A stretch of DNA of 21,097 bases from Ruminococcus flavefaciens. Lineage in GTDB: Bacteria > Bacillota > Clostridia > Oscillospirales > Ruminococcaceae. Shown here in pieces: positions 1,455 through 19,656 of this stretch. Location of the stretch: NCBI GenBank assembly GCA_902792495.1, contig CADBAC010000002.1, forward strand, positions 1-21,097, read 5' to 3'. Position 1 is the stretch's first letter; each line of letters starts with the position of its first letter. A model generated the notes under the pieces. That model had not been told where the DNA came from. It was given only the letters and a program-made list of their open reading frames with translations, and ran no database searches. A program made the translations under genes and the position numbers.

Positions 1455-2509
1455 TACTCATTTTCCTCCTTTTCTTCAGAATCGGCTTCAGCATCTTTGC
1501 TTTCTGCGGCATCTGTATTTCCGGTTTCGGGAACGATCTCGTTGAGGAGCTCGTCAACTGACTTTTTCTGGACAGGCCTGTTGATAAGTTCGGTGAATAC
1601 CTTTTCAAGGTTGGGCTTGTCGGTGTAGACCTCAAGCACGCTTATCTGGTTCTTGAGGCAGTCAGCCAGCAGCTTTTCCTGTATCTGGTCGGCATTTCCG
1701 CTGAGCTTGACGGTGAATGATGTGATATTGTTGCCCTCGTCAACAGCTTCGGTGATCTCGGATACACCGTCTGCAACTCCTATGATAGCGGCTGCGGCAG
1801 CCTTGCTTCCTGCGCACCTGATGTGGAGGACAGAGGAGTCGTTGAAGGACTTTTCAAGGTTCTCGATGGTGTCGATTGCACGGATGTCGCCCTTGTTGAT
1901 GATAACGACACGGTCACACACCGCACTTACCTCACTGAGGATATGGGAGCTGAAAATCACTGAATGCTCCTTCTTCAGATCCTTGATGATGCTTCTTACT
2001 TCGATGACCTGATTTGGGTCGAGACCTACAGTAGGCTCATCGAGAATGAGAAACTTTGGGTTGCCGAGGAGTGCCTGGGCAAATCCCACACGCTGCTTGT
2101 AACCTTTTGAAAGGTTGCGTATCAGCTTGTTCTGAACGTCCGTGATCTTCAGAAGAGCCATTACACGATCCATTTCGCTCTTCTTTTCCTTGCCCTTGAT
2201 ACCTTTGAGGCCTGCTCAGAAATCCAGATATTCCCTGACTTTCATATCGGGATAGACAGGCGGTATCTCGGGGAGATAACCGATGTTTCTCTTGGCTTTT
2301 ACAGGATTTTCAGTTATGTCGTCTCCGCAGATGGTGACTTTTCCTCCGCTCATCGGGAGGTAGCCTGCGATCATGTTCATGGTCGTTGATTTGCCCGCAC
2401 CGTTAGGTCCGAGAAAACCGAGGATCTCATTATCGTTTATTGTAAAGCTAATGTCATTTACAGCACGGTTATTGCCGTAGAACTTAGTCAGATTTTCAAT
2501 AGTAATCAT
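1454..2509 (-). pseudogene. ABC transporter ATPase (GldA/CcmA-type) interrupted by an in-frame TGA
   Basis: Two open frames (2509-2216 and 2173-1454) lie in the same reading frame and together make a 352-codon gene. The N-terminal part has Walker A (GPNGAGKST, residues 34-42) and ends VREYLDF. After one TGA codon (plus-strand 2216-2218, codon 98) the frame continues AGLKGIKG and then gives the signature LSKGYKQRV (from residue 133), Walker B with LILDEP (154-159) and the switch histidine in SSH (189). All motifs have normal order and spacing, so nothing but the TGA disrupts it. The C-terminal tail is acidic and rich in Glu/Asp. The start has an AGGAG site 6-8 bp upstream. Other genes here (fmt, priA, rsgA) end in TGA, so the code is standard. 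The TGA is either a true nonsense mutation, a one-base sequencing or assembly error (for example a Cys TGC/TGT or Trp TGG codon), or a readthrough site. As written, the product would be a 97-residue fragment without Walker B, possibly with reinitiation at the ATG at 2173. Confidence 0.85.
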
Positions 2510-2580
2510 GAGCTTCTCCTTTCATTTGTATAATATTGACTATGACAGAAAAATACTGTGCTAAAGTATACAATTACTCT

Positions 2581-2609
2581 ATCATAGCATACTGTTTTAT
2601 TATCGCAGA
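2581..2609 (-). promoter_or_regulatory. Possible extended -10 promoter for the ABC operon
   Basis: On the minus strand, TATGAT (2586-2581) is preceded by TG one base further upstream (2589-2588), giving an extended -10 element about 70 bp before the ATPase start. The matching -35 region (around 2604-2610) is poor. It is the best candidate I can see for the leftward operon, but it is weak. Confidence 0.3.
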
Positions 2610-2922
2610 ATAATATTAATGTGAGATGAACAAAATGTGAACAAAATGTTAAATGACGATTTTGCGTCCCACATCCGATTCCTGCCTCATTGTAATTATC
2701 ATGATAAATATTATATCTATTCTGTGTGGAATTTGTGAAAGATTATTGTAAAGGGAATGAATCTTATTTACTTTTATTAAAAATAATAAAAAATTCATCA
2801 AATCGCAACTTATGAAAAATCAGCAACTTTTGAGCGGTGGACAAAATGTACAAAAAGCGGTATTCCAATGTGTGCATTGCACCAAAAATAACCTTAAGCC
2901 CTGCTGAAAACTTTTTAAACTG

Positions 2923-2951
2923 TTGACATGAATTGAAATGTGGAATATAAT
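2923..2951 (+). promoter_or_regulatory. Consensus sigma-A promoter of the GH48 gene
   Basis: TTGACA (2923-2928) and TATAAT (2946-2951) are separated by exactly 17 bp, a perfect match to the vegetative sigma-A consensus. Transcription should begin near 2958, leaving about 230 nt of untranslated leader before the GH48 start. Such an exact promoter fits strong expression of a major cellulase. Any regulation must then come from upstream operators or from the leader. Confidence 0.85.
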
Positions 2952-2957
2952 TATCTT

Positions 2958-3190
2958 GAAAATAGTTTGAGAATTGTGTGTTTATAATGTGATATAAACA
3001 CGCAGTGTATGAGTATTTTCATATACGGTTTTCGTCACGGGTGTGCTGTGATGATGACGGAAAACGGCTGATAACGGAGCATATTAGGTGAGTCCTGTTC
3101 CTCAGCTTTTTCTTTATTCTGCAAAGTCTCCGGTGTACGGGAACGAAACCTTTTTAACCACATCACATTATTATGAGAGGGGTAATACTA
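2958..3190 (+). promoter_or_regulatory. Structured 5' leader of the GH48 mRNA (candidate cis-acting RNA)
   Basis: The predicted leader contains three successive inverted repeats. Hairpin 1 pairs 2976-2986 with 2993-3003 (core GTGTTTATA with TATAAACAC, loop of six). Hairpin 2 is weaker and pairs GTA and TGA (3007-3012) with TCA and TAC (3019-3026), with a two-base bulge. Hairpin 3 pairs 3027-3037 with 3055-3066 (GTTTTCGTCA with TGACGGAAAAC, one bulged G), around a 17-base loop. A T-rich run follows near 3107-3118. The RBS GAGAGGGG lies at 3175-3182. I recognise no known riboswitch class. The structure could stabilise the mRNA, attenuate transcription or bind a regulator, and the sequence does not decide between these. 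Confidence 0.5.
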
Positions 3191-5668
3191 ATGATAAGCA
3201 AAAAGACAAAGGCTCTCGCTGCTGGTATCCTTTCAGCAGCAATGACAGCTACAGCTGTTATCCCAGCAGTTTCTTCAGCAGCTCCTACTGCTGAGGCTCA
3301 GAAGTCAAACGACAGCTACATCCATATGTTCGAGTCACTCTATGATGACGTTATGACAAACGGTATCGATAACGGCTTCATGAGCAAGCAGAACAACGGC
3401 GCTAAGAAGTTCGGTATTCCTTACCACGCTGTAGAGACACTCGTTGTTGAGGCTCCTGACTACGGTCACGAGACAACTTCCGAGGCTATGTCATACATCG
3501 TATGGATGGCTGCTATGCACGATGCACTCGTTGCTAAGGGCCAGACAACAGGCGGCAATGACCTGGCTGACGCTTGGAAGATTCTGGAGGCTATGATCCC
3601 TGGTTGGTCAACAGCTCACGGCAGATCCGATATCGAGTACGGTTCAATCTGGGAGCAGGAAAGACTCAAGGCTGATACAGCTGCTGAAGGCGACTCTCCT
3701 AAGGATTATCCTACAGAGCAGCCTAACGTAGATGCTATCAACCCAATGTACGATGCATTCAAGTCTGCATACGGTTCAGATAACGGTTACTACCTTATGA
3801 ACTGGCTCGCTGACGTTGATGACTGGTACGGATTCAGCAAGGGCACTAAGGGTGAAGGCAAGTTCACATTCATCAATACCTTCCAGAGAGGTGAGGAAGA
3901 GTCTTGTTTCGAGACAGTTCCTGCTCCTTGTCTTGAAGAGCTTAAGTGGGGTATGGAGAGCACTGATAAGGATAACGGTAACGGTATCAAGGCTATCTTC
4001 AACGGTAAGGACAAGGTTCCTGCTCAGTACTCATTCACAAACGCTCCTGACGCTGAGGACCGTGCTATCCAGGCTATCTACTTCGCTAACCAGAACGGCG
4101 TAGACTGCGGAGAGATCTCAGCTCTCGCAGGTAAGATGGGTGACCAGTGCCGTAACGATATGTTCGATAAGTATTACAAGGCTATCGCTAAGGATACTAC
4201 TATCAGATCTGAGTCTGCCGGCATGAAGTCAAAGCACTACCTCATGGCTTGGTATACAGCTTGGGGCGGAGCTCTCACAGCTTCTTACGGTAACTACAAG
4301 TGGGCTTGGCAGATCGGCTGCTCACATTCACATCAGTTCTATCAGAACCCACTCGCTGCTTATGGTCTTCTCTATGATAAGAACATCAACAGCGGTATGA
4401 AGGCTAAGGACGCTGACGAAGACTACACAGAGTCACTCAAGAGACAGATCGAAATGTACCTCTGGCTCCAGTCTGTTGAAGGTCCTTTCGCTGGTGGTTG
4501 TACAAACTCATATAAGGGACGTTACGAGGAATATCCTGCTGATCTCCCAATATTCTATGACATGGTATTCGTTGCTCACCCTGTTTACGCTGACCCGGGT
4601 TCAAACCACTGGATCGGTAACCAGGTATGGTCAACTCAGCGTCTTGCTGAACTTTACTACTATGTAAAGAAGAATGGCGATCAGTCCAACATCAAGCCCG
4701 GCGGAATGAGCCTCGAGGACGCTCTCGATGCACTCCTCAAGAGATGGATCGACTGGTTCGAGGAGAACACTCACTTCGATTACACAACACCAGACGGCGA
4801 TACTCTTGAATATTGTATCCCATCTAACCTCGACTGGGGTAAGGGCGGTCACCACACTGATCCTGACTGTGTTCCTGATACATGGACAGGTACATACAAT
4901 CCTGACGGCAACAAGAAGCTCCACGCTACAATCACAGGTTATGGCCAGGGCGACTACGGTTGTGTATCTTCACTCTGTAATACACTTATCTACTACGCAG
5001 CTGCAAAGGGCGTAGATGCTAAGTACGCTCAGGAAGAGGGTACAACAACTGAAGAGAAGGCTCTCTATCTTGCTAACAAGCTCCTCACAAAGCAGTATAA
5101 TGCCGGCCGTGACGAGAAGAGCCTCGGATTCAAGGATCACAACGGTTCACTCAAGAGAATCTTCACTGAGGAAGTTTATATTCCTGATTACTATAGCGGT
5201 AAAATGCCTGATGAATCAGAGCTCAAGCCGGGTGCTACATTCAGCTCTATCCGTAAGAGCTACGAAAATGATAAGATGTGGCAGGATTGTAAGGCTGTAT
5301 TTGATGCAACAGGCGGTACAGATGATTACGAGTACACACTCCACAGATTCTGGCACGCTGGTGATGCTATCATGGCATACGGCGGAATGGCTCTGCTCTA
5401 TCCTACTGTTGAGCCTTGGGATCCAACTAAGGGTGGTGGCAATGATACACCTGAGGTAACAACTACAGCTGCTCCTGAGACAACTACTAAGGCAACAGAG
5501 ACAACTGCTGCTGAGACAACTGCTTCTAACCCAAGCAAGTATTCACTTACTGAGCAGGGCAAGCTGAACGGTGACGTTAACAAGAACGGCGACGGTATCA
5601 CAAATGCTGACGCTCTCTCAATCCAGAAGTATAAGCTCGAACTCGTTAAGGAGCTCCCAGAGTCATAA
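3191..5668 (+). CDS. Secreted GH48 cellulase with a truncated dockerin
   Basis: This is a family-48 glycoside hydrolase, a processive exo-acting cellulase that releases cellobiose from chain ends and is usually the most abundant cellulosomal enzyme. The chosen ATG (3191) lies 8 bp after GAGAGGGG and begins a signal peptide (MISKKTKALAAG, hydrophobic core, cleavage near residues 30-37). An upstream in-frame ATG at 3173 precedes that RBS and is less likely. The product is 825 residues. The catalytic domain spans about residues 40-747 and contains VEAPDYGHETTSEAMSY. E87 and E98 there have the same 11-residue spacing as the E44/E55 pair I recall for C. cellulolyticum Cel48F. A Thr/Glu/Ala-rich linker (about 748-779) leads to NPSKYSLTEQGKLNG and one Ca-binding F-hand-like repeat (about 794-816, GDVNKNGDGITNADAL). 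The first dockerin repeat is missing. No CBM is visible. The gene stands alone, with its own promoter and terminator. Confidence 0.96.
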   Translation: MISKKTKALAAGILSAAMTATAVIPAVSSAAPTAEAQKSNDSYIHMFESLYDDVMTNGIDNGFMSKQNNGAKKFGIPYHAVETLVVEAPDYGHETTSEAMSYIVWMAAMHDALVAKGQTTGGNDLADAWKILEAMIPGWSTAHGRSDIEYGSIWEQERLKADTAAEGDSPKDYPTEQPNVDAINPMYDAFKSAYGSDNGYYLMNWLADVDDWYGFSKGTKGEGKFTFINTFQRGEEESCFETVPAPCLEELKWGMESTDKDNGNGIKAIFNGKDKVPAQYSFTNAPDAEDRAIQAIYFANQNGVDCGEISALAGKMGDQCRNDMFDKYYKAIAKDTTIRSESAGMKSKHYLMAWYTAWGGALTASYGNYKWAWQIGCSHSHQFYQNPLAAYGLLYDKNINSGMKAKDADEDYTESLKRQIEMYLWLQSVEGPFAGGCTNSYKGRYEEYPADLPIFYDMVFVAHPVYADPGSNHWIGNQVWSTQRLAELYYYVKKNGDQSNIKPGGMSLEDALDALLKRWIDWFEENTHFDYTTPDGDTLEYCIPSNLDWGKGGHHTDPDCVPDTWTGTYNPDGNKKLHATITGYGQGDYGCVSSLCNTLIYYAAAKGVDAKYAQEEGTTTEEKALYLANKLLTKQYNAGRDEKSLGFKDHNGSLKRIFTEEVYIPDYYSGKMPDESELKPGATFSSIRKSYENDKMWQDCKAVFDATGGTDDYEYTLHRFWHAGDAIMAYGGMALLYPTVEPWDPTKGGGNDTPEVTTTAAPETTTKATETTAAETTASNPSKYSLTEQGKLNGDVNKNGDGITNADALSIQKYKLELVKELPES

Positions 5669-5698
5669 TCTTCTGAAAATAATTTGTCCAAACGATTT

Positions 5699-5730
5699 AA
5701 GAGGACGCTTCGGCGTCCTCTTTTTATTTT
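5699..5730 (+). terminator. Rho-independent terminator of the GH48 gene
   Basis: A perfect 10-bp stem (AAGAGGACGC 5699-5708 with GCGTCCTCTT 5713-5722) closes on a TTCG loop between C and G, the extra-stable UUCG tetraloop. A T-rich tail follows (TTTTTATTTT, 5721-5730). It begins 30 bp after the GH48 stop and isolates that gene from the yicC operon. Confidence 0.95.
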
Positions 5731-5740
5731 CTGAAACCCC

Positions 5741-5769
5741 TTGCAATTCCTGACGGGAAGTGGTATAAT
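5741..5769 (+). promoter_or_regulatory. Sigma-A promoter of the yicC operon
   Basis: TTGCAA (5741-5746) and TATAAT (5764-5769) are 17 bp apart, and TG at 5761-5762 supplies an extended -10. It lies just after the GH48 terminator and about 50 bp before the yicC start. It probably drives the long rightward housekeeping run. Confidence 0.85.
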
Positions 5770-5821
5770 AATATAATAGCATAGTTATGCGAAAAAATAT
5801 ATACAGAAAGCAGGAGATACC

Positions 5822-6700
5822 GTGCTGAAAAGTATGACAGGCTACGGCCGAGCACAGAAAATACTGAACGGACGTGATATCCTCGTTGAGATACGTTCCG
5901 TTAATCATAGGTACTATGAATATTCTTCAAGGATCCCCCGCACTTACAGCTATATCGACGAAAAGTTAAAGGCTCTCCTCAAGAATTCCATATCCAGAGG
6001 TAAGGTCGAAGCGGCCGTTACCATCAATAACATAGAGGGAAAAGATACCGAGATCGCTATCAACAAGGGCGTGGCTGAAGGCTATGTTGCTGCTCTCAGA
6101 AGCGTTTCCGAAGAACTCAAACTTGCTGATGATCTCTCACTCTCAAAGCTTATGAAGCTTCCCGATATCTTCACTGTCCAGAAAACTCCCGACGATGAAG
6201 AACAGGTCTGGAACGACGTTGCAGAAGTCGCTCAGGAAGCTGTTGATAAATTCGTTGAGATGCGCAGCACCGAGGGTGAGCGCCTCAAAAATGATATCAC
6301 CGAAAAAGCTGACGGCATTCTCAGAATGGTCATGGAGGTGGAGAGACTTTCTCCCATCACTGTTGAAAATTACAGAAACCGCCTGTATAAGAAGCTGAGC
6401 GAAGTGCTGGAAAATAAGGACATCGACGAGCAGAGGATACTCACCGAGGCTGCTATTTTCTCCGAAAAGATCGCTGTTGACGAGGAAACTGTCCGCCTCC
6501 GCAGCCATATCTCCCAGCTGAAAAATATGCTGAGATCCAACGAGGCTGTGGGAAGAAAGCTTGATTTCATCGTTCAGGAAATGAACCGTGAGGTGAATAC
6601 CATCGGTTCAAAGGCTCAGGACCTCAATATCACCAAGATAGTTGTGGATATGAAGGCCGAGATCGAGAAGATCCGTGAACAGATCCAGAATATCGAATAA
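5822..6700 (+). CDS. yicC: YicC family endoribonuclease
   Basis: The 292-residue product begins MLKSMTGYGRA, the hallmark N-terminus of the YicC/YloC family, and ends with the family's conserved part (LDFIVQEMNREVNTIGSK ... KAEIEKIREQIQNIE). YicC proteins are stress-related endoribonucleases that act on RNA and small RNAs. The start is GTG, with AGGAGAT 4 bp upstream. Other candidate starts further in would remove the conserved N-terminus. It is the first gene after the operon promoter. The order yicC-remA-gmk-rpoZ is the standard Firmicutes arrangement (yloC-remA-gmk-rpoZ in Bacillus), which supports the call. Confidence 0.96.
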   Translation: MLKSMTGYGRAQKILNGRDILVEIRSVNHRYYEYSSRIPRTYSYIDEKLKALLKNSISRGKVEAAVTINNIEGKDTEIAINKGVAEGYVAALRSVSEELKLADDLSLSKLMKLPDIFTVQKTPDDEEQVWNDVAEVAQEAVDKFVEMRSTEGERLKNDITEKADGILRMVMEVERLSPITVENYRNRLYKKLSEVLENKDIDEQRILTEAAIFSEKIAVDEETVRLRSHISQLKNMLRSNEAVGRKLDFIVQEMNREVNTIGSKAQDLNITKIVVDMKAEIEKIREQIQNIE

Positions 6701-6703
6701 GCT

Positions 6704-6961
6704 ATGAAACTGGTAAATATAGGCTATGGAAATATGGTCTCCGCAGGTAGGATAATCTCCGTTGTAAGCCCCGAATCAGCGCCCATCAAGCGTCTGGTGC
6801 AGGAGGCCCGTGACAGCGGCAAGGCCATTGATGCCACTTTTGGAAGAAAGACAAGAGCGGTCCTTATCATGGACAGCGGACATATCGTCCTCTCGTCACT
6901 GATAACCGATACTCTTGCTGCAAGAATAAATGGTACCGGAGGTACAGAGGATAATGAATAA
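6704..6961 (+). CDS. remA: RemA-like DNA-binding regulator (DUF370)
   Basis: This 85-residue protein starts [20 protein letters not shown] and contains [25 protein letters not shown], all diagnostic of the DUF370/RemA family. In Bacillus subtilis RemA is a ring-forming DNA-binding protein that activates biofilm-matrix and osmoprotection genes. In Clostridia its targets are largely unknown. The gene begins 3 bp after the yicC stop without an obvious Shine-Dalgarno site, which suggests translational coupling. Its last codons overlap the start of gmk. The family assignment is firm. A role in matrix control in this organism is inference. Confidence 0.93.
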
Positions 6962-7559
6962 AGGCAGACTTATTGTTTTTTCCGCTCCGTCAGGCTGCGG
7001 AAAGGGTACTATGCTGGAACAGATTCTCAAGGATGAGAAGTTCTGCGTTTCCGTTTCGGCTACTACAAGATCTCCCCGTGAGGGCGAGGTGAACGGCGTT
7101 AACTATCACTTCATCTCAAGAGATGAGTTCGAGCAGAGAGTTTCCGACGGCGGCTTCCTTGAATATGCGGAATACTGCGGAAATCTCTACGGAACTCCCA
7201 TGAAGGAAGTGAACGAGATGCTGGAAAAGGGCATGAATGTTATCCTCGAGATCGAGGTTCAGGGTGCTATCAAGGTCATGAACAAAAGACCCGATGCGCT
7301 TTCAATCTTCATCGCTCCTCCGTCCATTGCCGAACTCCGCAGACGTCTTCACAAGAGAGGCACAGAAACAGAAGATGTCATCGAGCAGCGTATCGCTCAG
7401 GCTTCAAACGAGGTCGCTCTTGCTGCAAAGTATGACTATATCATCGTGAACGATGCCCTTGAGGACGCTGTTGACGATTTCTTCCACGTTGTCCGTGCAG
7501 AACAGCTCAGATCAGACAAGAGACCTGAGATCATTGCGGACATTATCAAAAATTCGTAA
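6954..7559 (+). CDS. gmk: Guanylate kinase
   Basis: Guanylate kinase phosphorylates GMP to GDP with ATP, an essential step in purine nucleotide supply. The product is 201 residues with [19 protein letters not shown] (P-loop about residues 10-19), the GMP-binding [17 protein letters not shown] and the lid region ... RLHKRGTE, all standard for the family. The ATG at 6954 overlaps the remA stop (ATGAATAA) and follows AGAGG by 3 bp. An in-frame ATG at 6930 would add a non-conserved extension inside remA and is less likely. The length is typical. Confidence 0.97.
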
Positions 7560-7567
7560 GCCAACTG

Positions 7568-7583
7568 CACAGCTTATGCTGTG
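7568..7583 (+). other. Short intercistronic hairpin
   Basis: CACAGC (7568-7573) and GCTGTG (7578-7583) form a perfect 6-bp stem with a TTAT loop between gmk and rpoZ. No T-tract follows, so it is not a canonical terminator. It could mark an mRNA processing or stability point. It is small enough to be incidental. Confidence 0.45.
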
Positions 7584-7608
7584 AGAATATATAATAGAGG
7601 TGTATAAA

Positions 7609-7818
7609 ATGCTCAGACCTGCTGTAAATCAGATCATATCCAAGAACGAAAGCTGTTATTCACTTGTTATCGCTGTTGCAAAGCGTGCAAGAGAGATCGC
7701 TGACGAGCTCTACGCAAACGGCGAAACTCTTGAAGAAAAGCCTGTTAAGACCGCTGTTGAGGAGCTCGCAAGCGGCAAGTGCAAGATAGTCAACACTGCT
7801 CCACAGAATAACGAATAA
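7609..7818 (+). CDS. rpoZ: RNA polymerase omega subunit
   Basis: The 69-residue product has the omega signature MLRPAVNQIISKNESCYSLVIAVAKRAREIA, in which the SxYxLVxxxAKRAR core is conserved. Omega helps assemble RNA polymerase by binding the beta-prime subunit. The ATG at 7609 follows GAGGTG by 6 bp. The in-frame GTG at 7600 lies inside the RBS and is rejected. The stop shares a base with the priA start (TAATG). In Bacillus, coaBC lies between rpoZ and priA, and it is absent here. Confidence 0.94.
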   Translation: MLRPAVNQIISKNESCYSLVIAVAKRAREIADELYANGETLEEKPVKTAVEELASGKCKIVNTAPQNNE

Positions 7819-10262
7819 TGCCCCTGATTGCGGAGATCGCCGTAAGCGGAACTGCATATTCCTTTGATATGCTGTTCAGCTATTCGGTGCCCGACAATAT
7901 CAAGGCTAAGGTCGGCTGCCGTGTGCTTGTCCCTTTCGGACGAGGCAACAAACGGCGTATCGGCGTTATCATGAAGCTTTCTCAGGATAGCGGCAAGAAG
8001 CTGAAAGCTATCGTTTCTCAGGTGGATGATGAGCCTGTTGTATCCGATGAACTGCTTCAGCTTGCCCTGTATCTGAGGGAGAATACTTACTGTACCTACT
8101 ATGACGCTGTCAGGATAATGCTTCCTCCTGCCATGAGCGTGAGAGCAAAGGAAAGGTTTACATTAGTGAAAAATTTCACAGACTTTTCTGCGCTTTCCGA
8201 TGATGCCCATGAACTGCTGGAAAAGCTGAAAGCTATCCCCGACAACAAGTCGCTGAATGAAGTGCTGGAGAATTACATCCTTGAAAACGGCAGGAGACTG
8301 CCCGATGAACTCTGCGACGCAGGGGCGATGGATTCCGATAACATCTTCAGACAGGCTGTAGGTGATGCCGCAGTAAAAATGGTGCGGCTTTCAGACAAGT
8401 ATCTCAGCGAACCCGAAAGCTTCGACCTTACACCAAAACAGAAGATAGTTGCGGATTTTTTGTCGGAGTACGGCGCTGCGGCTGTGAAAGAAGCTGCATA
8501 TATGTGCGGTGTCACTCAGGCTGTGGTCAAGCGCCTTGTCGCAGGAGGAGCTGCCGCTGAATACGACATGGAGGTTTTCCGCCATGTTGACGACGGCTCA
8601 GAAGAAAAATTCGACCCCGACGAAATAGTTCTCTCGGATGAACAGCAGTCCGCTCATGACGCTGTGCTTTCCGCTCTCTTTGACAGGAAGGCGGCAGCTT
8701 TTCTGCTGCATGGCGTTACGGGAAGCGGCAAGACTTCGGTCTTCGAGAAGCTTATATCCGATACAGTAAAAATGGGAAGGCAGGCTATACTGCTCATCCC
8801 CGAAATAGGCCTTACTCCTCAGATACTCCGCAGATTCCGCTCACTTTTCGGTGAGAGAGTTGCTGTTATCCACAGCGGACTTTCACAGGGGCAGCGTCTT
8901 GACGAGTACAAGAGGATAAAGAATGGCAGCGCCGATATAGTCATCGGCACAAGAAGTGCAGTGTTTGCACCTCTTGATAATATCGGCATCATCATAGTCG
9001 ATGAGGAAGGCGAGCGCTCTTACAAATCCGACAGCTCACCGAGATACATGACTCACGATGTCGCAAGGCAGCGCTGCGGTTACCACAAGGCTGTGCTTCT
9101 GCTGGCGTCGGCTACTCCCTCGGTGGAGAGCTACTATCTGGCGGAAAAAGGCGTGTACAGGCTTCTGGAGATGAATAAACGCTACAGCACTTCGCCTTTG
9201 CCCGAGGTAAGCATAGTCGATATGAATCTGGAGCGTGAGGCCGGCAACAAGACGGAATTCAGCCGAAAACTGGCTGAGGAGCTGAGCCGCAATCTGGCAA
9301 ACGGTGAGCAGTCCATACTTCTGCTCAATCGCCGTGGCTATCACACGGTCATAAGCTGCTGCGACTGCTATCAGCCCGTATACTGCCCGAATTGCTCCGT
9401 ACCGCTTACCTACCACAAGAAAAACGACAAGCTGATGTGCCACTACTGCGGCTACGTCAGCGAGAAAATAACGGTCTGCCCAAGCTGCGGCTCGGAAAGA
9501 CTGAGGAATATGGGGTTCGGCACTCAGAAGCTGGAGGAGGAACTTGCGGTTTATTTCCCGCAGGCGAGAGTTCTCCGCATGGACGCTGATACCACTTTTT
9601 CCCGATATTCCTACGAAAAGAACTTCGCAGACTTCCGTGACGGGAAGTACGACATAATGATAGGCACTCAGATGATCGGCAAGGGACTTGACTTCCCCGA
9701 TGTTACGCTGGTCGGAGTGCTTTCCGTCGATAAAGCCCTGTTTGCAGGAGATTTCCGGAGCTACGAGCGTACCTTCTCACTTATCACTCAGGTGGTGGGA
9801 CGAAGCGGCCGTGGCGAAAGACAGGGAAGGGCGATACTTCAGACTTTTATGCCCGAGCATTACATAATGAATCTGGCTGCGGCTCAGGACTACAAAGGCT
9901 TCTACAACGAAGAAATAGCCATCCGCCGTGCTATGATATTTCCGCCTGTCTGCGATATGGCGGTGTTCTGTTTTGCGGCAAACGATGAAGTGTCCGTTCA
10001 GAAGGGCGCAGACGCTGTGCTCCGTCTGATGAAGGAGAAACTGGACAGGATGCAGCCGAAAACTCCTATTCGTGTGCTTGGCCCAGTCAGAGCCTCATAC
10101 GGGAGAATAAACGGCAAATTCCGATACAGAATAATAATGAAATGCAAAAATAACGCCGAGATACGTGGTTTCATCAGTTCGCTTCTGACGGAAGCGGCCG
10201 ACCTGAAAGAAATGAAAGGCGTTGCCCTGTACGCTGATATGAACGGCGATGTCGGGGTATGA
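7818..10262 (+). CDS. priA: Primosomal protein N' (replication restart helicase PriA)
   Basis: The 814-residue protein has the full PriA layout. The N-terminal DNA-binding domain contains VGCRVLVPFGRGNKRRIGV. Helicase Walker A is HGVTGSGKTS (about 298-307). A motif II of DEEGERSYKSD follows at about 395, then GTRSAVFAP. The zinc-binding cysteine cluster (about 514-561) includes CPNC, CHYC and CPSC, and the C-terminal helicase lobe has IGTQMIGKGLDFPDVTLVG and QVVGRSGRG. PriA reloads the replisome at stalled forks. Motif II reads DEEG where the textbook PriA box is DEEH and other Clostridia, as I recall, have DEEQ, so that position varies. The start at 7818 is coupled to rpoZ. Length is normal. 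Confidence 0.97.
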   Translation: MPLIAEIAVSGTAYSFDMLFSYSVPDNIKAKVGCRVLVPFGRGNKRRIGVIMKLSQDSGKKLKAIVSQVDDEPVVSDELLQLALYLRENTYCTYYDAVRIMLPPAMSVRAKERFTLVKNFTDFSALSDDAHELLEKLKAIPDNKSLNEVLENYILENGRRLPDELCDAGAMDSDNIFRQAVGDAAVKMVRLSDKYLSEPESFDLTPKQKIVADFLSEYGAAAVKEAAYMCGVTQAVVKRLVAGGAAAEYDMEVFRHVDDGSEEKFDPDEIVLSDEQQSAHDAVLSALFDRKAAAFLLHGVTGSGKTSVFEKLISDTVKMGRQAILLIPEIGLTPQILRRFRSLFGERVAVIHSGLSQGQRLDEYKRIKNGSADIVIGTRSAVFAPLDNIGIIIVDEEGERSYKSDSSPRYMTHDVARQRCGYHKAVLLLASATPSVESYYLAEKGVYRLLEMNKRYSTSPLPEVSIVDMNLEREAGNKTEFSRKLAEELSRNLANGEQSILLLNRRGYHTVISCCDCYQPVYCPNCSVPLTYHKKNDKLMCHYCGYVSEKITVCPSCGSERLRNMGFGTQKLEEELAVYFPQARVLRMDADTTFSRYSYEKNFADFRDGKYDIMIGTQMIGKGLDFPDVTLVGVLSVDKALFAGDFRSYERTFSLITQVVGRSGRGERQGRAILQTFMPEHYIMNLAAAQDYKGFYNEEIAIRRAMIFPPVCDMAVFCFAANDEVSVQKGADAVLRLMKEKLDRMQPKTPIRVLGPVRASYGRINGKFRYRIIMKCKNNAEIRGFISSLLTEAADLKEMKGVALYADMNGDVGV

Positions 10263-10284
10263 TAAATATGAAAGGAAGAGCTAA

Positions 10285-10746
10285 ATGGCACTTAGAAAAA
10301 TTCTGACTGACAAAGACGAAAGCCTTCACAAGGTTTGCAAGCCCGTTGATAAATTCGACGAAAAGCTGGCTGTACTCCTTGATGATATGCATGAGACTCT
10401 CGACAAGGCTCAGGGCCTCGGACTGGCAGCTCCTCAGATCGGACTGTGCAGAAGAATATTCATCATGCATCTTGAGGAGGGCAGCTTCGAGTGCATCAAT
10501 CCCGAAGTTACACAGAAGGAAGGCAAGCAGAGAGTTCAGGAAGGCTGTCTCTCATGCCCGAATGTATGGGGATATGTTACACGTCCTATGAAATGCCATC
10601 TGAAGGCTCAGGACAGAAACGGCAACTGGTTCGAGAGAGACTTTGAAGGTCTCGGCGCTCAGTGTACCTGCCACGAAAATGACCATCTCGACGGCCATGT
10701 TTTCACAGAAATAGTCGAGGAATTCTTCGTTCCCGAGGAGGAATGA
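10285..10746 (+). CDS. def: Peptide deformylase
   Basis: This metal-dependent hydrolase removes the formyl group from the N-terminal methionine of new proteins. The 153-residue product carries all three signature motifs: GLGLAAPQIG (about 44-53), EGCLS (86-90, with C88 as a metal ligand) and HENDHLDG (130-137, H130 and H134 as ligands, E131 catalytic). The start follows AAAGGAAGAG. The fmt start lies one base after the def stop, so the enzymes that add and remove formyl groups are coexpressed, the usual bacterial arrangement. The C-terminus is acidic and short. Confidence 0.97.
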   Translation: MALRKILTDKDESLHKVCKPVDKFDEKLAVLLDDMHETLDKAQGLGLAAPQIGLCRRIFIMHLEEGSFECINPEVTQKEGKQRVQEGCLSCPNVWGYVTRPMKCHLKAQDRNGNWFERDFEGLGAQCTCHENDHLDGHVFTEIVEEFFVPEEE

Positions 10747-10747
10747 C

Positions 10748-11689
10748 ATGAAAATAGTATTTATGGGCAGCCCTGAATTTTCGGTTCCCTGCCTTAAAGT
10801 GCTGGCCGAAAGCAAGCACGAAGTAGCGGCTGTATTCACTCAGCCCGACAAGGCAAGAGGCAGACGAGGCAATCAGCTTGTGCCGACTGCGGTAAAGGCT
10901 GCGGCTTTAGAGTACGGCTATCAGGTATATCAGCCCCTTTCTCTGAGAAAAGGCGAGGATGCGGAGACCTCCATGCAGGTGCTGAGAGACATCGCTCCCG
11001 ACCTTATAGTAGTTACCGCTTACGGACAGATACTGCCGAAAGAGGTGCTTGAACTGCCGAAATACGGCTGTATCAACATTCACGCTTCACTTCTCCCCAA
11101 GTACAGAGGAGCCGCTCCCATAAACTGGGTGATCCTCAACGGCGAGACAGAAACGGGCGTGACATCAATGCAGATGGGCGAAGGCCTTGACACCGGCGAT
11201 ATGCTTATCAAAAAAGCCACAAAAATAGGCGAAAACGAGACCTATGAGGAACTCTATGCGAGACTGGCTGTCATGGGCGGCGAGGTGCTTGCGGAGACTC
11301 TCGAAGCTGTGGAAAAAGGCACTCTTTCTCCCGAAAAGCAGGACGATTCGCTTTCCTGCTATTCACCTATGATACAGAAGGAAATGAGCGCTCTGGACTT
11401 TTCAAAAACTGCCGCTGAGGTACACAATACCATCCGTGGCGTTACAGGCTTCACAATGCTTGACGGCAAGAGACTGAAGGTGTTCAGATCTGAGATTTCG
11501 GACAATATTGCTCCCGATGCAGAGAACGGCTCCATAGTCGATGAAAAGCGTTTCGCTGTGAAATGCGGCGACGGAAAAGCTGTTGTATTTACCGAAGTTC
11601 AGCCCGAAGGTAAAAAGCGCATGGCCGCTGAGGACTTCCTCAGAGGCAAAAAGCTCGTAAAGGGCGAAATACTTGGAGGAACCAAATGA
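10748..11689 (+). CDS. fmt: Methionyl-tRNA formyltransferase
   Basis: Fmt transfers a formyl group from 10-formyl-tetrahydrofolate to initiator Met-tRNA. The 313-residue protein begins MKIVFMGSPEFSVPCLKVL, contains the catalytic-site segment NIHASLLPKYRGAAPINW (residues about 114-131) and MGEGLDTGDML, and has the C-terminal tRNA-binding domain with TIRGVTGFTMLDGKRLKVF. Family length is about 310. A GAGGAG site at the end of def serves its start. Its stop overlaps the next gene by 4 bases (ATGA). Confidence 0.97.
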   Translation: MKIVFMGSPEFSVPCLKVLAESKHEVAAVFTQPDKARGRRGNQLVPTAVKAAALEYGYQVYQPLSLRKGEDAETSMQVLRDIAPDLIVVTAYGQILPKEVLELPKYGCINIHASLLPKYRGAAPINWVILNGETETGVTSMQMGEGLDTGDMLIKKATKIGENETYEELYARLAVMGGEVLAETLEAVEKGTLSPEKQDDSLSCYSPMIQKEMSALDFSKTAAEVHNTIRGVTGFTMLDGKRLKVFRSEISDNIAPDAENGSIVDEKRFAVKCGDGKAVVFTEVQPEGKKRMAAEDFLRGKKLVKGEILGGTK

Positions 11690-12375
11690 ACCCGAACTAC
11701 ACATATGTGATAACTTTCATAATAATGCTCATTCTCCCGATACTTGCGGAGATATACGTTACAGTAACTTTCAAGAAATACAACATGGTCCGCAATTCCC
11801 GTGGACTTACCTCCGACAGAGTCGCACGTATGATCCTCGACAGCAATGGACTTTTCGACACAAAGGTGGAATTCATCAGCGGCACTCTCAGCGATCACTA
11901 CGACCCGAGGGCAAATGTGGTGCGCCTTTCAAATTCCACATACGGTCAGATTTCCGTAGCGGCTATCGGTGTTGCTGCACATGAGTGCGGCCATGCCTGC
12001 CAGCACGCAGAAAGATATTTTCCGATCCGCCTGAGAACAGCTATCGTACCTGTTACAAATATCTGTTCAAGGCTGTGGTATCTGGTTTTTCTGGGAGGTG
12101 TTCTCCTCAGCAATATGACCATCGGAACCAATCTTATCTTTGTTTCTATCGTCATGTTTGCGGCAGTTGTACTGTTCCAGCTGGTCACTCTCCCCACTGA
12201 GATAAATGCAAGCAGAAGAGCAATGGCTACCCTCGAAAGAGACGGCATTCTTGAAGCCGACGAGCTTCCGAAGGCAAGAAAGGTACTGACCGCAGCAGCG
12301 CTCACATACGTTGCAGGCCTTATAGTATCTATCATGCAGCTGCTCCGACTTCTTGCTCCGTTCAGGAGAAGATGA
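11686..12375 (+). CDS. Membrane-bound neutral zinc metallopeptidase (YugP family)
   Basis: The 229-residue product has an N-terminal membrane segment (about residues 5-25), then the zinc-binding motif HECGH (99-103) within AAHECGHACQHAERY, two further hydrophobic segments (about 125-168), PTEINASRRAMATL, and a C-terminal membrane helix ending at a basic tail. This matches the YugP/COG2738 family of membrane peptidases, whose physiological substrates are not established. The glutamate in PTEINASRR is a plausible third zinc ligand. The start overlaps the fmt stop (ATGA), and the stop overlaps rsmB. Bacillus lacks a gene at this place. As I recall it is common in Clostridia, and its position suggests cotranscription rather than a defined shared role. 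Confidence 0.92.
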   Translation: MNPNYTYVITFIIMLILPILAEIYVTVTFKKYNMVRNSRGLTSDRVARMILDSNGLFDTKVEFISGTLSDHYDPRANVVRLSNSTYGQISVAAIGVAAHECGHACQHAERYFPIRLRTAIVPVTNICSRLWYLVFLGGVLLSNMTIGTNLIFVSIVMFAAVVLFQLVTLPTEINASRRAMATLERDGILEADELPKARKVLTAAALTYVAGLIVSIMQLLRLLAPFRRR

Positions 12376-13712
12376 TGGCTGATCCGAGATATACCGCTGT
12401 CAAGCTTCTGGACAAGACGTTCAGGAGCGGCAGCTACTCAAACATACAGCTTGACGCAGGGCTGAAAAACTCTGACCTTTCGCCCCAGGACAAACGGTTC
12501 TGCACGGCGCTTTACTATGGTGTCATCGAGAGGAAGATAACTCTCGATCATGTTCTGTCAGGTCTTTCTTCCCGTCCGCTGAGCAAGCTGGACAGCATAA
12601 TTATAACTATATTGCGGTGCGGTATCTACCAGATACTCTACATGGAAAACGTCCCCGACAACGCTGCTGTAAACGAGAGCGTCAAGCTTGCCAAGAAGTT
12701 CGGCAAGACCAGCGCTTCGGGCATGGTCAATGCGGTTCTCAGGAACTTTATCAGAAATGGCAAAAAGTATGATATATCAAAGAACGAAATAGAGCGTATG
12801 TCTGTGGAATACTCAATACCTGCCGAGCTGATAGAGAGCGTTGTGAATGACTACGGCATGGAGAATGCAAAAGACCTTTTTGTGGATTCTCTCGGTGAAG
12901 CTCCTACTTTCATCCGTGTCAACAATATCGGTGATGACGAAGCTGACGAGGACAGGGAATTTCTTGAAAAGTGGGGCGACAGATCATTTTTCGAGAAGTC
13001 TCCTCTCCTGCCTCATTGCTACAAGGTCAATGACAAGGTCGGTTTGTACAATCTGGAAAGCAACGATATGTTCATTATGGGTCTTTTCCATGTGCAGGAT
13101 CTGGCATCGCAGCTTTGCTGTGCAGCCGTTGCGCCAACGGAAAATGACATAGTTCTCGATATGTGCGCCGCCCCGGGAGGAAAGACTTTTACTATGGCGG
13201 AGATGATGGACGGCAAAGGACAGATATATGCTTTTGACCTCCATAAGCACCGTGTGGGATTGATAGAGGAAGGCGCAGCACGTCTTGAACTAAGTAATGT
13301 CAAAGCTGAGGCAAGGGATGCGACGAAGTATTACGATGACATCCCGAAAGCCACGAAGATACTCTGTGATGTGCCCTGTTCGGGCTACGGAGTCATCAGG
13401 AAAAAGCCTGAGATACGCTATAAGAGCATTTCGGACTTTGAGCGCCTGCCTGAGATACAGTACAAAATTGCCGAGAATGCGCTGAATTATCTGGCTGACG
13501 GCGGCGAGATGGTCTATTCCACCTGCACTGTACGCAAGGCAGAAAATGAAGATGTGGTGCAGAAACTTCTGGCAAATCATCCCGAACTCGAACTTGTGGA
13601 ACTTCCTCAGCCGCTGGGAAGCGTGTTCAGCGGAGGCATGGCGGCTATTTTTCCGCATCATTTCGGAAGTGACGGATTCTTTATAGCGAAACTCCGCAAA
13701 ATTCAGAAGTAA
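12372..13712 (+). CDS. rsmB: 16S rRNA (cytosine-967 C5)-methyltransferase
   Basis: RsmB methylates C967 of 16S rRNA with S-adenosylmethionine. The 446-residue protein has the NusB-like RNA-binding domain at the N-terminus (about residues 1-140, with AVKLLDKTF and LRCGIYQILYMENVPDNAAVNESVKLAKKFG in family order). A SAM-dependent methyltransferase domain follows, with MCAAPGGKT (from 264), DVPCSGYGVIRKKPEIRY (C336) and YSTCT (C385), the two cysteines needed for m5C chemistry. Two adjacent ATG codons (12372 and 12375) are possible starts, and AGGAG at 12364-12368 could serve either. It overlaps the stop of the peptidase gene. Confidence 0.96.
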   Translation: MMADPRYTAVKLLDKTFRSGSYSNIQLDAGLKNSDLSPQDKRFCTALYYGVIERKITLDHVLSGLSSRPLSKLDSIIITILRCGIYQILYMENVPDNAAVNESVKLAKKFGKTSASGMVNAVLRNFIRNGKKYDISKNEIERMSVEYSIPAELIESVVNDYGMENAKDLFVDSLGEAPTFIRVNNIGDDEADEDREFLEKWGDRSFFEKSPLLPHCYKVNDKVGLYNLESNDMFIMGLFHVQDLASQLCCAAVAPTENDIVLDMCAAPGGKTFTMAEMMDGKGQIYAFDLHKHRVGLIEEGAARLELSNVKAEARDATKYYDDIPKATKILCDVPCSGYGVIRKKPEIRYKSISDFERLPEIQYKIAENALNYLADGGEMVYSTCTVRKAENEDVVQKLLANHPELELVELPQPLGSVFSGGMAAIFPHHFGSDGFFIAKLRKIQK

Positions 13713-13743
13713 GCAGAAAGCAGAAAGCAGTTATCGATTCTGC
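13713..13743 (+). repeat. GCAGAAA heptamer repeat with a short hairpin
   Basis: Directly after the rsmB stop, GCAGAAA occurs twice and a half (13713-13730). The second GCAGAA (13720-13725) can pair with TTCTGC (13738-13743). The unit is 7 bp, the same period as the repeat at 13783-13815. Confidence 0.7.
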
Positions 13744-13762
13744 GCTCAAAGATTTTTGATCC

Positions 13763-13777
13763 GTCCACGGAGTGGAC
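13763..13777. repeat. Short inverted repeat GTCCAC-GGA-GTGGAC
   Basis: A perfect 6-bp stem (13763-13768 with 13772-13777) around GGA lies in the only sizeable gap inside the housekeeping run. Another small inverted repeat, TCAAA/TTTGA (13746-13750 with 13755-13759), sits just before it. No T-tract follows the stem, so a terminator is not supported. Confidence 0.55.
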
Positions 13778-13782
13778 ACCGC

Positions 13783-13815
13783 AATTCCGAATTCCGAATT
13801 ATGAATTCTGAATTA
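13783..13815. repeat. AATTCCG-type heptamer tandem repeat
   Basis: Four 7-bp units and a partial fifth follow each other: AATTCCG, AATTCCG, AATTATG, AATTCTG, AATTA. The repeat ends 20 bp before the rlmN start and just upstream of its RBS, so it lies in the 5' region of rlmN. The units have diverged, which suggests an old tract or one renewed by slippage. Confidence 0.85.
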
Positions 13816-13834
13816 AAAAGAAAGGGGTGAGCGG

Positions 13835-14893
13835 TTGGAAAAAATCGACATTCTCAGTCTCGGTCTGACTGAACTTGAAAATGTTTTAACTGAACTTGGA
13901 GAGAAAAAATTCAGGGCAAAACAGATCTTTCAGTGGCTTCATGTAAAAAGAGTCACCGATTTTGATAAAATGACTGATATATCTGTCCAATTGAGAACGG
14001 TCCTGAAAGAAAAATTTTGTATAAATGGACTATTTATAGAAAAAAAGCTTGAATCTTGTATGGATAATACTGTAAAATATCTGTATAGGCTTTCTGACGG
14101 GAACTTTGTCGAGACTGTTCTTATGGAGTACAACTACGGCCACAGCATCTGTGTCTCCACTCAGGTGGGGTGCAAAATGGGCTGCCGTTTCTGTGCCTCA
14201 GCTATTGCAGGTTATGTCAGAGACCTTGAGCCGTCCGAGATACTCATGCAGATCTATGAGACTGAAAGAGATTCGGGCGTCCGTGTTTCGGGCGTGGTGC
14301 TCATGGGCATAGGCGAGCCTCTCGATAACTATGAAAACGTTGTGAGATTCCTCAGCCTCCTCTCAGACAAGAACGGCAATAATATGAGCCTCAGACACGT
14401 ATCGCTGTCTACCTGCGGTATAGTCCCGAGGATCTATGATCTGGCAAAGCTACGGCTGGGCGTTACCCTGTGCGTATCGCTTCACTGCCCCGACAACGAG
14501 GGACGAAGCAAGATAATGCCCGTTAACAACAAGTATGACATAGACAGCCTTATCACGGCCTGCAAAGATTATATAGACGCAACAGGCCGCCGCATCACCT
14601 TTGAATATGCCGTTATCGACGGAGTCAACTCCACCGATGCCGATGCCGACAAGCTGGCTGACCTTCTCCGTGGCATCAACTGCCATGTGAACCTGATACC
14701 TGTCAACAAGGTGAAGGAGAGAAACTACAGGACAGCTCGTTCAGGCGTTGCCGATTTCGCCAAGCGGCTCGGCAAAAGAGGTATCAATGCCACTGTGAGA
14801 AGAACTCTCGGAAGCGATATCGAAGCTGCCTGCGGACAGCTGAGACGGGATGCGGCAAAAAGCAGTGAGAAGAACGGAGGTGCGGACGCTTGA
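13835..14893 (+). CDS. rlmN: Dual-specificity rRNA/tRNA adenine C2-methyltransferase (radical SAM)
   Basis: RlmN is a radical SAM enzyme that methylates C2 of A2503 in 23S rRNA, and A37 in some tRNAs in E. coli. The 352-residue protein starts MEKIDILSLGLTELENVL and has QIFQWLHVK, the cluster motif CKMGCRFC (C113, C117, C120), SGVVLMGIGEPLDNY, and the C-terminal DIEAACGQLR with the methyl-carrying C333. The start codon is TTG, 4 bp after AAGGGGTGA. No other in-frame start fits. The first 270 or so bases are visibly more AT-rich and use different codons (for example TTTTGTATAAATGGACTATT) from the rest of the gene and its neighbours. The stop overlaps the prpC start. Confidence 0.97.
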   Translation: MEKIDILSLGLTELENVLTELGEKKFRAKQIFQWLHVKRVTDFDKMTDISVQLRTVLKEKFCINGLFIEKKLESCMDNTVKYLYRLSDGNFVETVLMEYNYGHSICVSTQVGCKMGCRFCASAIAGYVRDLEPSEILMQIYETERDSGVRVSGVVLMGIGEPLDNYENVVRFLSLLSDKNGNNMSLRHVSLSTCGIVPRIYDLAKLRLGVTLCVSLHCPDNEGRSKIMPVNNKYDIDSLITACKDYIDATGRRITFEYAVIDGVNSTDADADKLADLLRGINCHVNLIPVNKVKERNYRTARSGVADFAKRLGKRGINATVRRTLGSDIEAACGQLRRDAAKSSEKNGGADA

Positions 14894-15615
14894 GATACCG
14901 TTTCGGTACGGATATCGGTCTGGCAAGAGATGAAAATCAGGACTCGGTCAGATGCGAGTATTTCGGCCACAATATACTCGCTGTCGTGTGCGACGGCATG
15001 GGCGGTGAAAGAGCAGGAAAAGAAGCAAGCTCCATCGCCGTTGAGGAATTCTTCCAGCGGTTCTCAGCAGGCTATTCCGAAAGACTGAATGATGAGGAGA
15101 TAAGGACCCTTCTCATTTCTTCTGTCTCAGCCGCTAATTCCGTTATATACACAAGGGCAAGGTTCGATTTCAAGAACTTCGGCATGGGTACTACCTGCGT
15201 CGCTGCCTTTGTCGGGAAAAACTCCGCTGTTATAGCCAATGTGGGCGACAGCAGAGCTTACCTCATCACAAATGACGGCCTCGTTCAGATAACCGAGGAC
15301 CACAACTACGCAATGGATCTCTACAAGCACGGTAAAATTACCGAGGAAGAGATCGAAACTCACCCTCAGAAGCATATGCTCGTGAAGGCTGTCGGTGTAG
15401 AAAAGACAGTCTCTGCGGATACTTTCGTATTTGACTATGAGGATAAGATCAGTCTGCTGCTCTGCTCCGACGGCCTTTCGGGCTATTGCAGCGACGATGA
15501 AATATATGACGTCATCATGCGCTCTACTTTTGATGACGTTGCAGACGAACTTATTACTTTAGCTCTCAGCAAGGGCGGCCGTGACAATATAACTGTTGCG
15601 GTAATTTCTGACTAA
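14890..15615 (+). CDS. prpC: PP2C-type Ser/Thr protein phosphatase (Stp/PrpC)
   Basis: PrpC dephosphorylates targets of the PASTA kinase encoded next to it. The 241-residue product has the PP2C metal-binding motifs in order: TDIGLARDENQDS, VCDGMGGERAG, ANVGDSRAYL, CSDGLSGY and KGGRDNITV. It is cytoplasmic, with no membrane segment. The start is TTG at 14890, overlapping the rlmN stop, with GGAGGTG 7 bp upstream. Pairing with prkC is the standard Firmicutes signalling module. Length is typical (about 240). Confidence 0.97.
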   Translation: MRYRFGTDIGLARDENQDSVRCEYFGHNILAVVCDGMGGERAGKEASSIAVEEFFQRFSAGYSERLNDEEIRTLLISSVSAANSVIYTRARFDFKNFGMGTTCVAAFVGKNSAVIANVGDSRAYLITNDGLVQITEDHNYAMDLYKHGKITEEEIETHPQKHMLVKAVGVEKTVSADTFVFDYEDKISLLLCSDGLSGYCSDDEIYDVIMRSTFDDVADELITLALSKGGRDNITVAVISD

Positions 15616-15632
15616 ACGCAGGAGGAAAGGAT

Positions 15633-17960: not shown

Positions 17961-18838
17961 TGAGTAACGCAGCAACAAGCGGAATAATAACAAAATGCTT
18001 AGGGGGACTCTACACAGTAGAGTCCCCTGATGGTATTTATGAGTGCAAAGCAAGAGGAGTTTTCCGCAACAAGGGAATAAGCCCCTGCGCAGGCGACCGT
18101 GTAACACTGGAAAACGGTGTTATCTCGGAAATATGCGAAAGGAAAAATTCCATCATCCGACCTCCCCTTGCAAATCTTGACCAGCTTATATTTGTGGTGT
18201 CTACCTGTTCACCTGCCCCGAATTTCCTTATACTTGACAAGTTCATAGCTATAGCCGAGTACAAGGGGATAACTCCCGTAGTGGTAATAACCAAGACGGA
18301 TCTGGGCGACAGTTCGGAGATACACAGGATATACAGCGGTATCGGCATTGATGTGATAGATGTGGACTACGGCAGCGAGGAGACTATCGAAGCTGTCCGC
18401 AGACTGCTGGCAGGAAAGATAAGCGCATTTACGGGAAATTCAGGTGCAGGCAAGTCCACTCTGCTGAATGCGGTGGACAGCACCCTCAATATCCCCACAG
18501 GCGAGATAAGCAAAAAGCTGGGCCGTGGCCGTCATACCACACGCCATGCCGAGCTGTATAAACTGAAAGACGGCGGATACATCGCAGATACTCCCGGCTT
18601 TTCCACATTCGACACAAACCGCTACGACATTATCCGCAAAGAGGAACTGGCAGGCTGTTTCCGTGAAATGGACGAGTACATCGGTCAGTGTCAGTTCAGT
18701 GACTGCGCTCATATCTGCGAAAAGGGATGCGAAGTGGTAGCCGCTGTTGAGGCAGGGAAAATTTCCCGAAGCCGCCACGAAAGCTACAAGGCTATGTACG
18801 AGGAAGCAAAGCAGATAAAGGAGTGGGAACTGAAATGA
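17960..18838 (+). CDS. rsgA: Ribosome small subunit-dependent GTPase A
   Basis: RsgA is a circularly permuted GTPase that helps mature the 30S subunit. The 292-residue protein has the N-terminal OB-fold (about 1-75), TKTD (G4), then GNSGAGKST (G1, from residue 159), GRGRHTTRHAELY and DTPGFSTF (G3). The C-terminal zinc site holds CQFSDCAHICEKGC. G4 coming before G1 shows the permuted order. The ATG overlaps the prkC stop (TGATG). No good SD is visible, so translation may be coupled to prkC. A perfect hairpin lies in its first codons (separate entry). In Bacillus rpe follows rsgA. Here thiN follows directly, overlapping by 4 bases. Confidence 0.97.
   Translation: MSNAATSGIITKCLGGLYTVESPDGIYECKARGVFRNKGISPCAGDRVTLENGVISEICERKNSIIRPPLANLDQLIFVVSTCSPAPNFLILDKFIAIAEYKGITPVVVITKTDLGDSSEIHRIYSGIGIDVIDVDYGSEETIEAVRRLLAGKISAFTGNSGAGKSTLLNAVDSTLNIPTGEISKKLGRGRHTTRHAELYKLKDGGYIADTPGFSTFDTNRYDIIRKEELAGCFREMDEYIGQCQFSDCAHICEKGCEVVAAVEAGKISRSRHESYKAMYEEAKQIKEWELK
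18002..18028 (+). promoter_or_regulatory. Perfect 11-bp hairpin inside the start of rsgA
   Basis: GGGGACTCTAC (18003-18013) pairs exactly with GTAGAGTCCCC (18017-18027) around a three-base ACA loop, and a G-T pair extends the stem. It covers codons 15-23 of rsgA (LGGLYTVES). No T-tract follows, so it is not a terminator. It could slow ribosomes, limit rsgA translation or protect the 3' end of a processed prkC message. Confidence 0.6.
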
Positions 18839-19479
18839 ACAAGTGGTGCGCCATTTTTGCAGGCGGAGATATGCCCGACATGAAGCCCTATTCTCTGCCG
18901 GTATACTACAAGAATTTCGAGTGCGTGATATGTGCTGACAGCGGCTACAAACACGCAAAAAGGCTGGGGATAGTTCCCGATGTCATTGTGGGGGATTTCG
19001 ATTCCTACGACGGCGAACTTCCCGAGGGAGCGGAGGTGATCCGCACCGTCCCCGAAAAGGACGATACCGACACTCTCATGGCTATAAAAAAAGCCATATC
19101 GCTGGGCTATAAGGAACTTTTCCTTTTCGGCGCACTGGGCGGCAAGCGATTTGAGCATACGGTCGCAAATATACAGGCAATGATGTATGCCCGTGAACAC
19201 GGCTGTAAACTTGGGATATACGGCGAAAGCACGCTTCTTCTGCAAGGTGCGGAGGACGGTGAACATTGCTATCTCCGTGAGGAAGAAGGCACGTACCTGT
19301 CAGTGTTTGCCATGACGGAAAGCGCAGACATCGAGTATATGCGGGGAGTGAAGTATCCGCTGGAGAATTACCATATGGTTCAGTCATTCCCCATAGGTGT
19401 AAGCAATGAAATAACGGATACGACCGCCGATATAAAGCTGAAAAGCGGAGTTGTCCTTATAGTGCTGACGGTCATGTAA
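18835..19479 (+). CDS. thiN: Thiamine pyrophosphokinase
   Basis: ThiN converts thiamine to thiamine pyrophosphate with ATP. The 214-residue product has the family motifs CADSGYKHAKRLGIVPDVIVGDFDS, KDDTDT, GALGGKRFEHTVANI and FPIGVSNE in the right order. The catalytic GxGGRxDH motif here reads GALGGKRFEH, so the usual Asp is Glu shifted by one; the rest is normal. The ATG at 18835 overlaps the rsgA stop (ATGA). An AGGAG lies 11 bp upstream. A GTG at 18823 in frame is possible but less conserved. The place between rsgA and spoVM is syntenic with Bacillus apart from the missing rpe. Confidence 0.95.
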   Translation: MNKWCAIFAGGDMPDMKPYSLPVYYKNFECVICADSGYKHAKRLGIVPDVIVGDFDSYDGELPEGAEVIRTVPEKDDTDTLMAIKKAISLGYKELFLFGALGGKRFEHTVANIQAMMYAREHGCKLGIYGESTLLLQGAEDGEHCYLREEEGTYLSVFAMTESADIEYMRGVKYPLENYHMVQSFPIGVSNEITDTTADIKLKSGVVLIVLTVM

Positions 19480-19549
19480 CAAAATCAGTGCCCTTTGAAT
19501 ATACTGTTTTAGTGGATGAACCACAACTATACTTAAAGGGGGACTGCAC

Positions 19550-19630: not shown

Positions 19631-19656
19631 CTTTTGAAAGTGAAAAGAAATATGCA

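Follow-up and report, generated by a model that had tools for sequence, protein, structure and literature searches.

A GH48 cellulase from a Ruminococcus flavefaciens genome bin ends in only the second half of a group-1 dockerin

Is a GH48 cellulase that ends in half a dockerin still a subunit of the cellulosome, and has the organism truly lost the other half? The question is raised by the window analysed here, a 21,097-nt stretch that is the whole contig C2 of an R. flavefaciens genome bin (G000; 2.57 Mb in 531 contigs, 79.6% complete, 3.6% contaminated). The GH48 gene lies on the forward strand at 3191..5668 and encodes 825 residues from the ATG at 3191, which is also the start of the homologues P0001–P0003 and P0005–P0007; a second in-frame ATG lies upstream at 3173, giving an open frame of 3173–5668 on the same strand. 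The catalytic domain (3317..5401, forward strand) places the protein in the GH48 family, matching Pfam PF02011 over its full length (profile positions 1–619 of 619, E 7.1e-165), and no other Pfam module was found in the protein. It is the only GH48 match in the fragmented bin, and most genus genomes searched likewise carry a single GH48. In strain FD-1, the sole critical exoglucanase is described as GH48 (PMC2930009). The gene is followed on its 3' side by a terminator-like hairpin with a T run (5699..5728, forward strand; stem 5699–5722, 10 pairs), found once against 0.1 expected in shuffled sequences; FD-1 has a hairpin too.

The C-terminus of the protein reads KATETTAAETTA followed directly by SNPSKYSLTEQGKLNGDVNKNGDGITNADALSIQKYKLELVKELPES and the stop codon, a linker joined to a second dockerin repeat without the first. 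The Thr-rich linker spans 5402..5524 and the half-dockerin 5525..5665, both on the forward strand, the latter comprising the end of helix 1 (SNPSKY), the helix 2 region, the second calcium loop and helix 3. The loop, DVNKNGDGITNAD (5573..5611, forward strand), has the 13 residues and the ligand positions n, n+6 and n+12 of groups 1a–c, with Asp at all three, which is the atypical calcium-loop pattern described for group 1 (PMC5429695). Asp795 and Asp807 are invariant among 64 aligned GH48 proteins. With respect to the two group-1 motifs given in PMC2930009, segment c2 (ALxIQKxxL, helix 3) is present as ALSIQKYKL, and segment c1 (VxIMQxxxNP, repeat 1, helix 1) is absent save for its final NP. 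Group 1 has two calcium repeats and this tail has one. A Pfam search up to E 1 returned no dockerin model, PF00404 included, for the protein. The best PDB matches of the tail are 5m2s_B (E 2.7e-13) and 5m2o_B (E 1.8e-10), chains named as R. flavefaciens or group-I dockerins, which align significantly in their second halves only; the resemblance to a dockerin is therefore not a matter of chance.

The first-pass annotation had proposed that the first repeat is absent in frame, and this was borne out by alignment with P0001, the nearest homologue found (861 residues, ENA source, representing a cluster of 11 members). At the deletion junction (5524..5525, forward strand), 36 codons of P0001, or 108 bp, are missing in frame, from the last part of the linker through repeat 1, stopping just short of SNPSKY. 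P0001 reads ETTAAETTA[SQTTVPTPGGKVTLWGDANCDGTVDVSDAVIIMQSL]SNPSKYSLTEQGKLNG... at this place and is 36 residues longer. The junction had also been placed at the right position, since the Ser codon that precedes NPSKY begins at 5525 and the stop codon ends at 5668; the extent of the loss was slightly underestimated, with about 14 linker residues gone in addition to the first repeat. Identity to P0001 is 93% by BLASTP, in which the gap is counted, and 97% in the alignment, where the 825-residue protein shows 22 differing positions, the 36-residue gap and two single-residue gaps in the linker. The differences amount to 17/714 over the catalytic region (residues 30–743), 4 in the linker and 1/46 in the half-dockerin (from Asn-780). 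A sister sequence with the same deletion may hide among the 11 members of the P0001 cluster. The GH48 of FD-1 (L033) also has a complete first repeat; its linker is the shorter one, and alignment with it leaves a gap of 75 nt.

A tail with one repeat might simply be the normal, conserved GH48 type of the genus, a reading that we regard as barely credible and for which we found no support in the relatives compared. A GH48 was detected in 112 of the 125 genomes searched in the genus, our own bin counted, and tails were taken in two batches (30 + 77) from 107 of the 111 others, leaving out G054, G071, G074 and G075, where the match or the contig stops short. Repeat 1 is present in 106 of these 107 tails, 99 by a script rule and seven (L004, L006, L007, L023, L274, L280 and L294) read individually; the contig of L287 stops short of it, and the tail of L308 is masked shortly past the start of repeat 1. 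An overlapping set of named genomes (80 loci, best of 125) gave repeat 1 in 77, with L048, L061 and L111 unreadable. All 120 GH48 proteins listed, of 2483 found, carry it as well (117 by script, 3 by eye), P0040 and P0114 ending early after repeat 1. One further protein among them, P0109, shows a frame change in the linker between its dockerin repeats, after repeat 1. The possibility left by the first-pass annotation, that GH48 orthologues share a single-repeat tail, thus found no example in 106 readable genus genomes or in the 120 listed proteins (of 2483).

Dockerins on other proteins mostly have repeat 1 as well. A search with the tail only yielded 39 proteins from 100 candidates, 36 of them new, and repeat 1 is present in 35; the stretch printed for the 36th, P0154, is not the dockerin. 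The 35 readable new proteins include no further enzyme with a group-1 half-dockerin. In the bin, 29 places match the tail, and the other 28 group-1 places all have repeat 1. In FD-1 (G125), repeat 1 accompanies 95 of the 97 matching group-1 places, and widespread half-dockerins in that genome were rejected on this count. The two exceptions are L230, which is degenerate, and L233, which has a second repeat only (see L243). L230 (G125:C11:45692-46402) is a degenerate group-1 dockerin remnant in an 83-aa frame, probably a decayed gene. L243 (G125:C8:105500-109000) is an orphan group-1-like second repeat, NGDIAGNNDGITNADALAVQKKLLGL, inside an FD-1 protein that also carries an apparently complete dockerin of another type. 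It resembles the window's tail in being a second repeat without a first; however, it is internal to a protein with another seemingly complete dockerin, whereas the window's tail is terminal. Since repeat 1 is found in the GH48 relatives, at 28 places in the bin and at 95 of 97 in FD-1, the window's tail looks like an isolated loss and not a dockerin class. Half group-1 dockerins are rare, and on GH48 none but the window's was seen.

An isolated loss in an assembled contig could also have arisen in assembly. The organism's GH48 would then have a normal two-repeat dockerin like that of P0001, and the gap would stem from a chimeric read, from gap closing or from the collapse of repeated dockerin DNA in a strain mixture. 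We hold this possible but doubtful, and consider a real deletion about twice as probable as an artefact. The bin is fragmented (531 contigs), and a run of 90 bases in the remaining half is identical to the dockerin of a paralogue (L114, contig C297), the kind of spot where assemblers stumble; the tail of this paralogue reads almost as that of P0122, whose Pfam domains mark it as a GH9 protein. However, the 90-bp match does not include the junction, whose 24-mer ACAACTGCTTCTAACCCAAGCAAG (5516–5539) occurs once in the bin, even at 3 mismatches, so that copying of the junction from a paralogous dockerin assembled in the bin was rejected. Placement of the missing first half beside another second half was rejected likewise, since 28/28 other places own their first repeat. 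The full module in so near a homologue as P0001 and the absence of the deletion from every other genome read favour an artefact, but both flanks match this one protein. The reading frame is kept, which speaks for a real event, although an in-frame result has a one-in-three chance anyway.

A second dockerin deletion in the bin also lends weight to an assembly origin. At L129 (contig C402), near position 1505 of the locus, 69 bp are missing relative to FD-1 L156, with the loss of helix 3 at the end of repeat 2 and of the original stop codon. Comparison of the window with FD-1 points the other way: from 1708 to 21097, gaps over 12 nt occur solely at the GH48 tail. BLAST against FD-1 split the contig at 5410/5525 into parts of 88.3% and 95.3% identity, but base-level divergence shows no step at the junction, and a strain chimera (misjoin) was rejected on these grounds. 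In the half, 20 of 144 bases differ from FD-1, much as on the GH48 side, and differences at fourfold sites are 0.20 in GH48, 0.16 in the half (3 of 19 sites) and 0.21 in yicC; they range over 0.26–0.34 in the three left-hand genes and 0.07–0.25 in the twelve genes further right. By both measures divergence is mosaic and does not shift sharply where the two parts join.

Two further observations concern the DNA around and within the half-dockerin. About 290 bp following GH48 (5740–6030) have zero mismatches to FD-1, with flanks differing by about 10%, and in the next gene divergence is patchy again; this pattern is one of mosaic divergence, perhaps through recombination. Within the half-dockerin, the GH48 gene differs from the GH9-like C297 paralogue at 7/141 bases and from the GH48 of FD-1 at 20/141, and the dockerins of the FD-1 GH48 and its own paralogue show 6 differences. 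These counts suggest that dockerins become more alike within each genome, as gene conversion would make them.

What would the loss mean for binding? The FD-1 GH48 dockerin is assigned to group 1a (PMC2930009), has served as a group-1 probe (PMC5301203) and is also reported in PMC2721979; group-1 dockerins bind the ScaA and ScaB cohesins (PMC5429695). Mutants of the FD-1 dockerin Doc1a described in the latter source indicate which contacts matter. Relative to a wild-type Ka of 1.2e8 per M, I39A (3.9e6) and V43A (1.9e6) lose about 30- and 60-fold by its Table 2 (~100-fold in its text), and the double mutant of Ile-39 and Val-43 abolishes binding, whereas Q83A (1.5e8) and L87A (2.8e7) show little loss (PMC5429695). 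When the window's tail is mapped on Doc1a, the last linker residues occupy the place of helix 1; none of the contact residues 32–47 is left, linker residues standing in their stead, and Ile-39 and Val-43 of helix 1 fall in the missing stretch. Equivalents of Lys-54, Tyr-55, Gln-83 (5624–5626) and Leu-87 (5636–5638, both helix-3 contacts on the forward strand) are kept, together with the second calcium loop. On this mapping, the tail would keep minor contacts and lose the decisive ones. Because the contacts that dominate in Doc1a lie in the missing helix 1, we predict from the relative's mutants that the tail has no useful ScaA/ScaB cohesin binding and that the GH48 is free.

The AlphaFold2 models are consistent with a less settled fold of the half. 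The intact P0001 dockerin reached a pLDDT of 85–94 (10-residue blocks over 791–860) and the window's half 62–87; both models were built on the same 64 sequences, nearly all with repeat 1, which makes the pLDDT differences weak evidence and the support for such a fold correspondingly weak.

The first-pass annotation held that a dockerin normally needs two repeats. For this species the premise goes too far, since the group-2 dockerins of FD-1, in which a single repeat is recognised (PMC2930009), do bind. They are described as being like truncated group 4 and as binding the ScaH cohesin, with a Ka of 1e6–1e7 per M for groups 2 and 4 (PMC5301203), and functional half-dockerins are also cited in PMC8063739. 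The window's half might accordingly be a working module, binding a cohesin alone as the group-2 half-dockerins do or pairing with a further half, such as the tail of a second GH48, to rebuild a two-helix face. We think this unlikely. In its favour, the half has not decayed and keeps both its second calcium loop and the contacts of helix 3. On the other side, the residues on which group-1 binding chiefly depends are missing, and at the places of Doc1a Val-76 and Gln-80, the symmetry mates of Ile-39 and Val-43, repeat 2 has Asn and Leu. Moreover, group 2 resembles part of group 4 and not group 1 (PMC5301203). The protein search with the tail also argues against it, repeat 1 being present in 35 of its 36 new proteins (P0154 being unreadable in the printed stretch). 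By published description, the FD-1 group-2 dockerins ('truncated', 'half-dockerins') share with the window's tail a C-terminal position and one recognised repeat; they form their own small family near part of group 4, whereas the window carries the second half of a group-1 dockerin and its enzyme's relatives are intact. To a related reading we give a slightly smaller chance still, namely that a natural R. flavefaciens-type population uncoupled GH48 from the cellulosome through the loss of half a dockerin and put the other half to a new use as a single-repeat module, such as weak or altered cohesin choice or the pairing of two GH48 tails. Among the three outcomes first suggested for the enzyme, its being left free is the best supported, through the Doc1a mutants; different binding and completion by a partner drew no positive evidence. 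That the leftover half shows no decay fits a recent event, and equally an artefact or a retained function.

A cellulosome system is present in this bin, although incompletely assembled, as indicated by genes for a ScaC-like cohesin protein and for the N-terminal part of ScaA. Contig C37 (L244) ends with the first 283 residues of the latter, which have 78% identity to FD-1; the scaffoldin cluster breaks off there inside scaA. A search of the bin with FD-1 ScaB gave one weak match (E 5.7e-4, residues 1923–1982). As the bin is 79.6% complete, neither this single weak match nor the ScaA fragment proves an absence. The names ScaC, ScaA and ScaB are those we presume for the FD-1 genes at L242, from gene order, domains and the usual order of the cluster.

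Overall, we favour, as the fairly probable explanation, a recent in-frame loss of repeat 1 that leaves the GH48 secreted free and its remaining half vestigial. A 108-bp deletion would have taken repeat 1 of a GH48 group-1 dockerin, the remainder being the second calcium loop and helix 3. With helix 1 gone, useful affinity for ScaA/ScaB-type cohesins would be lost, and instead of joining the cellulosome as a subunit the GH48 would be secreted free. The remaining half would be a vestige in which decay has not yet begun.

Among the closest known systems is the GH48 of FD-1 with its group-1a dockerin. It and the window's GH48 are alike in gene, neighbourhood, second calcium loop and helix-3 contacts, and their second halves are 86% identical in DNA; however, FD-1 has repeat 1 and helix 1, whereas the window is without both. 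The GH48 of R. albus, listed under CBM37 in PMC4081043, is another ruminococcal GH48 with no tie to a cohesin, but it is associated with CBM37, whereas the window's protein keeps a dockerin remnant and has no other Pfam module. Single-repeat dockerins as such are already known in the species (group 2). Searches of the open-licence literature turned up no earlier account of a GH48 with half a group-1 dockerin.

The case rests on one bin, and its meaning depends on whether the deletion is real. If it is, a natural allele without the docking face would show the worth of GH48 docking, with the same enzyme bound in one form and free in the other. If it is an artefact, it would serve as a warning that repeated dockerin DNA can yield false domain losses in metagenome bins.
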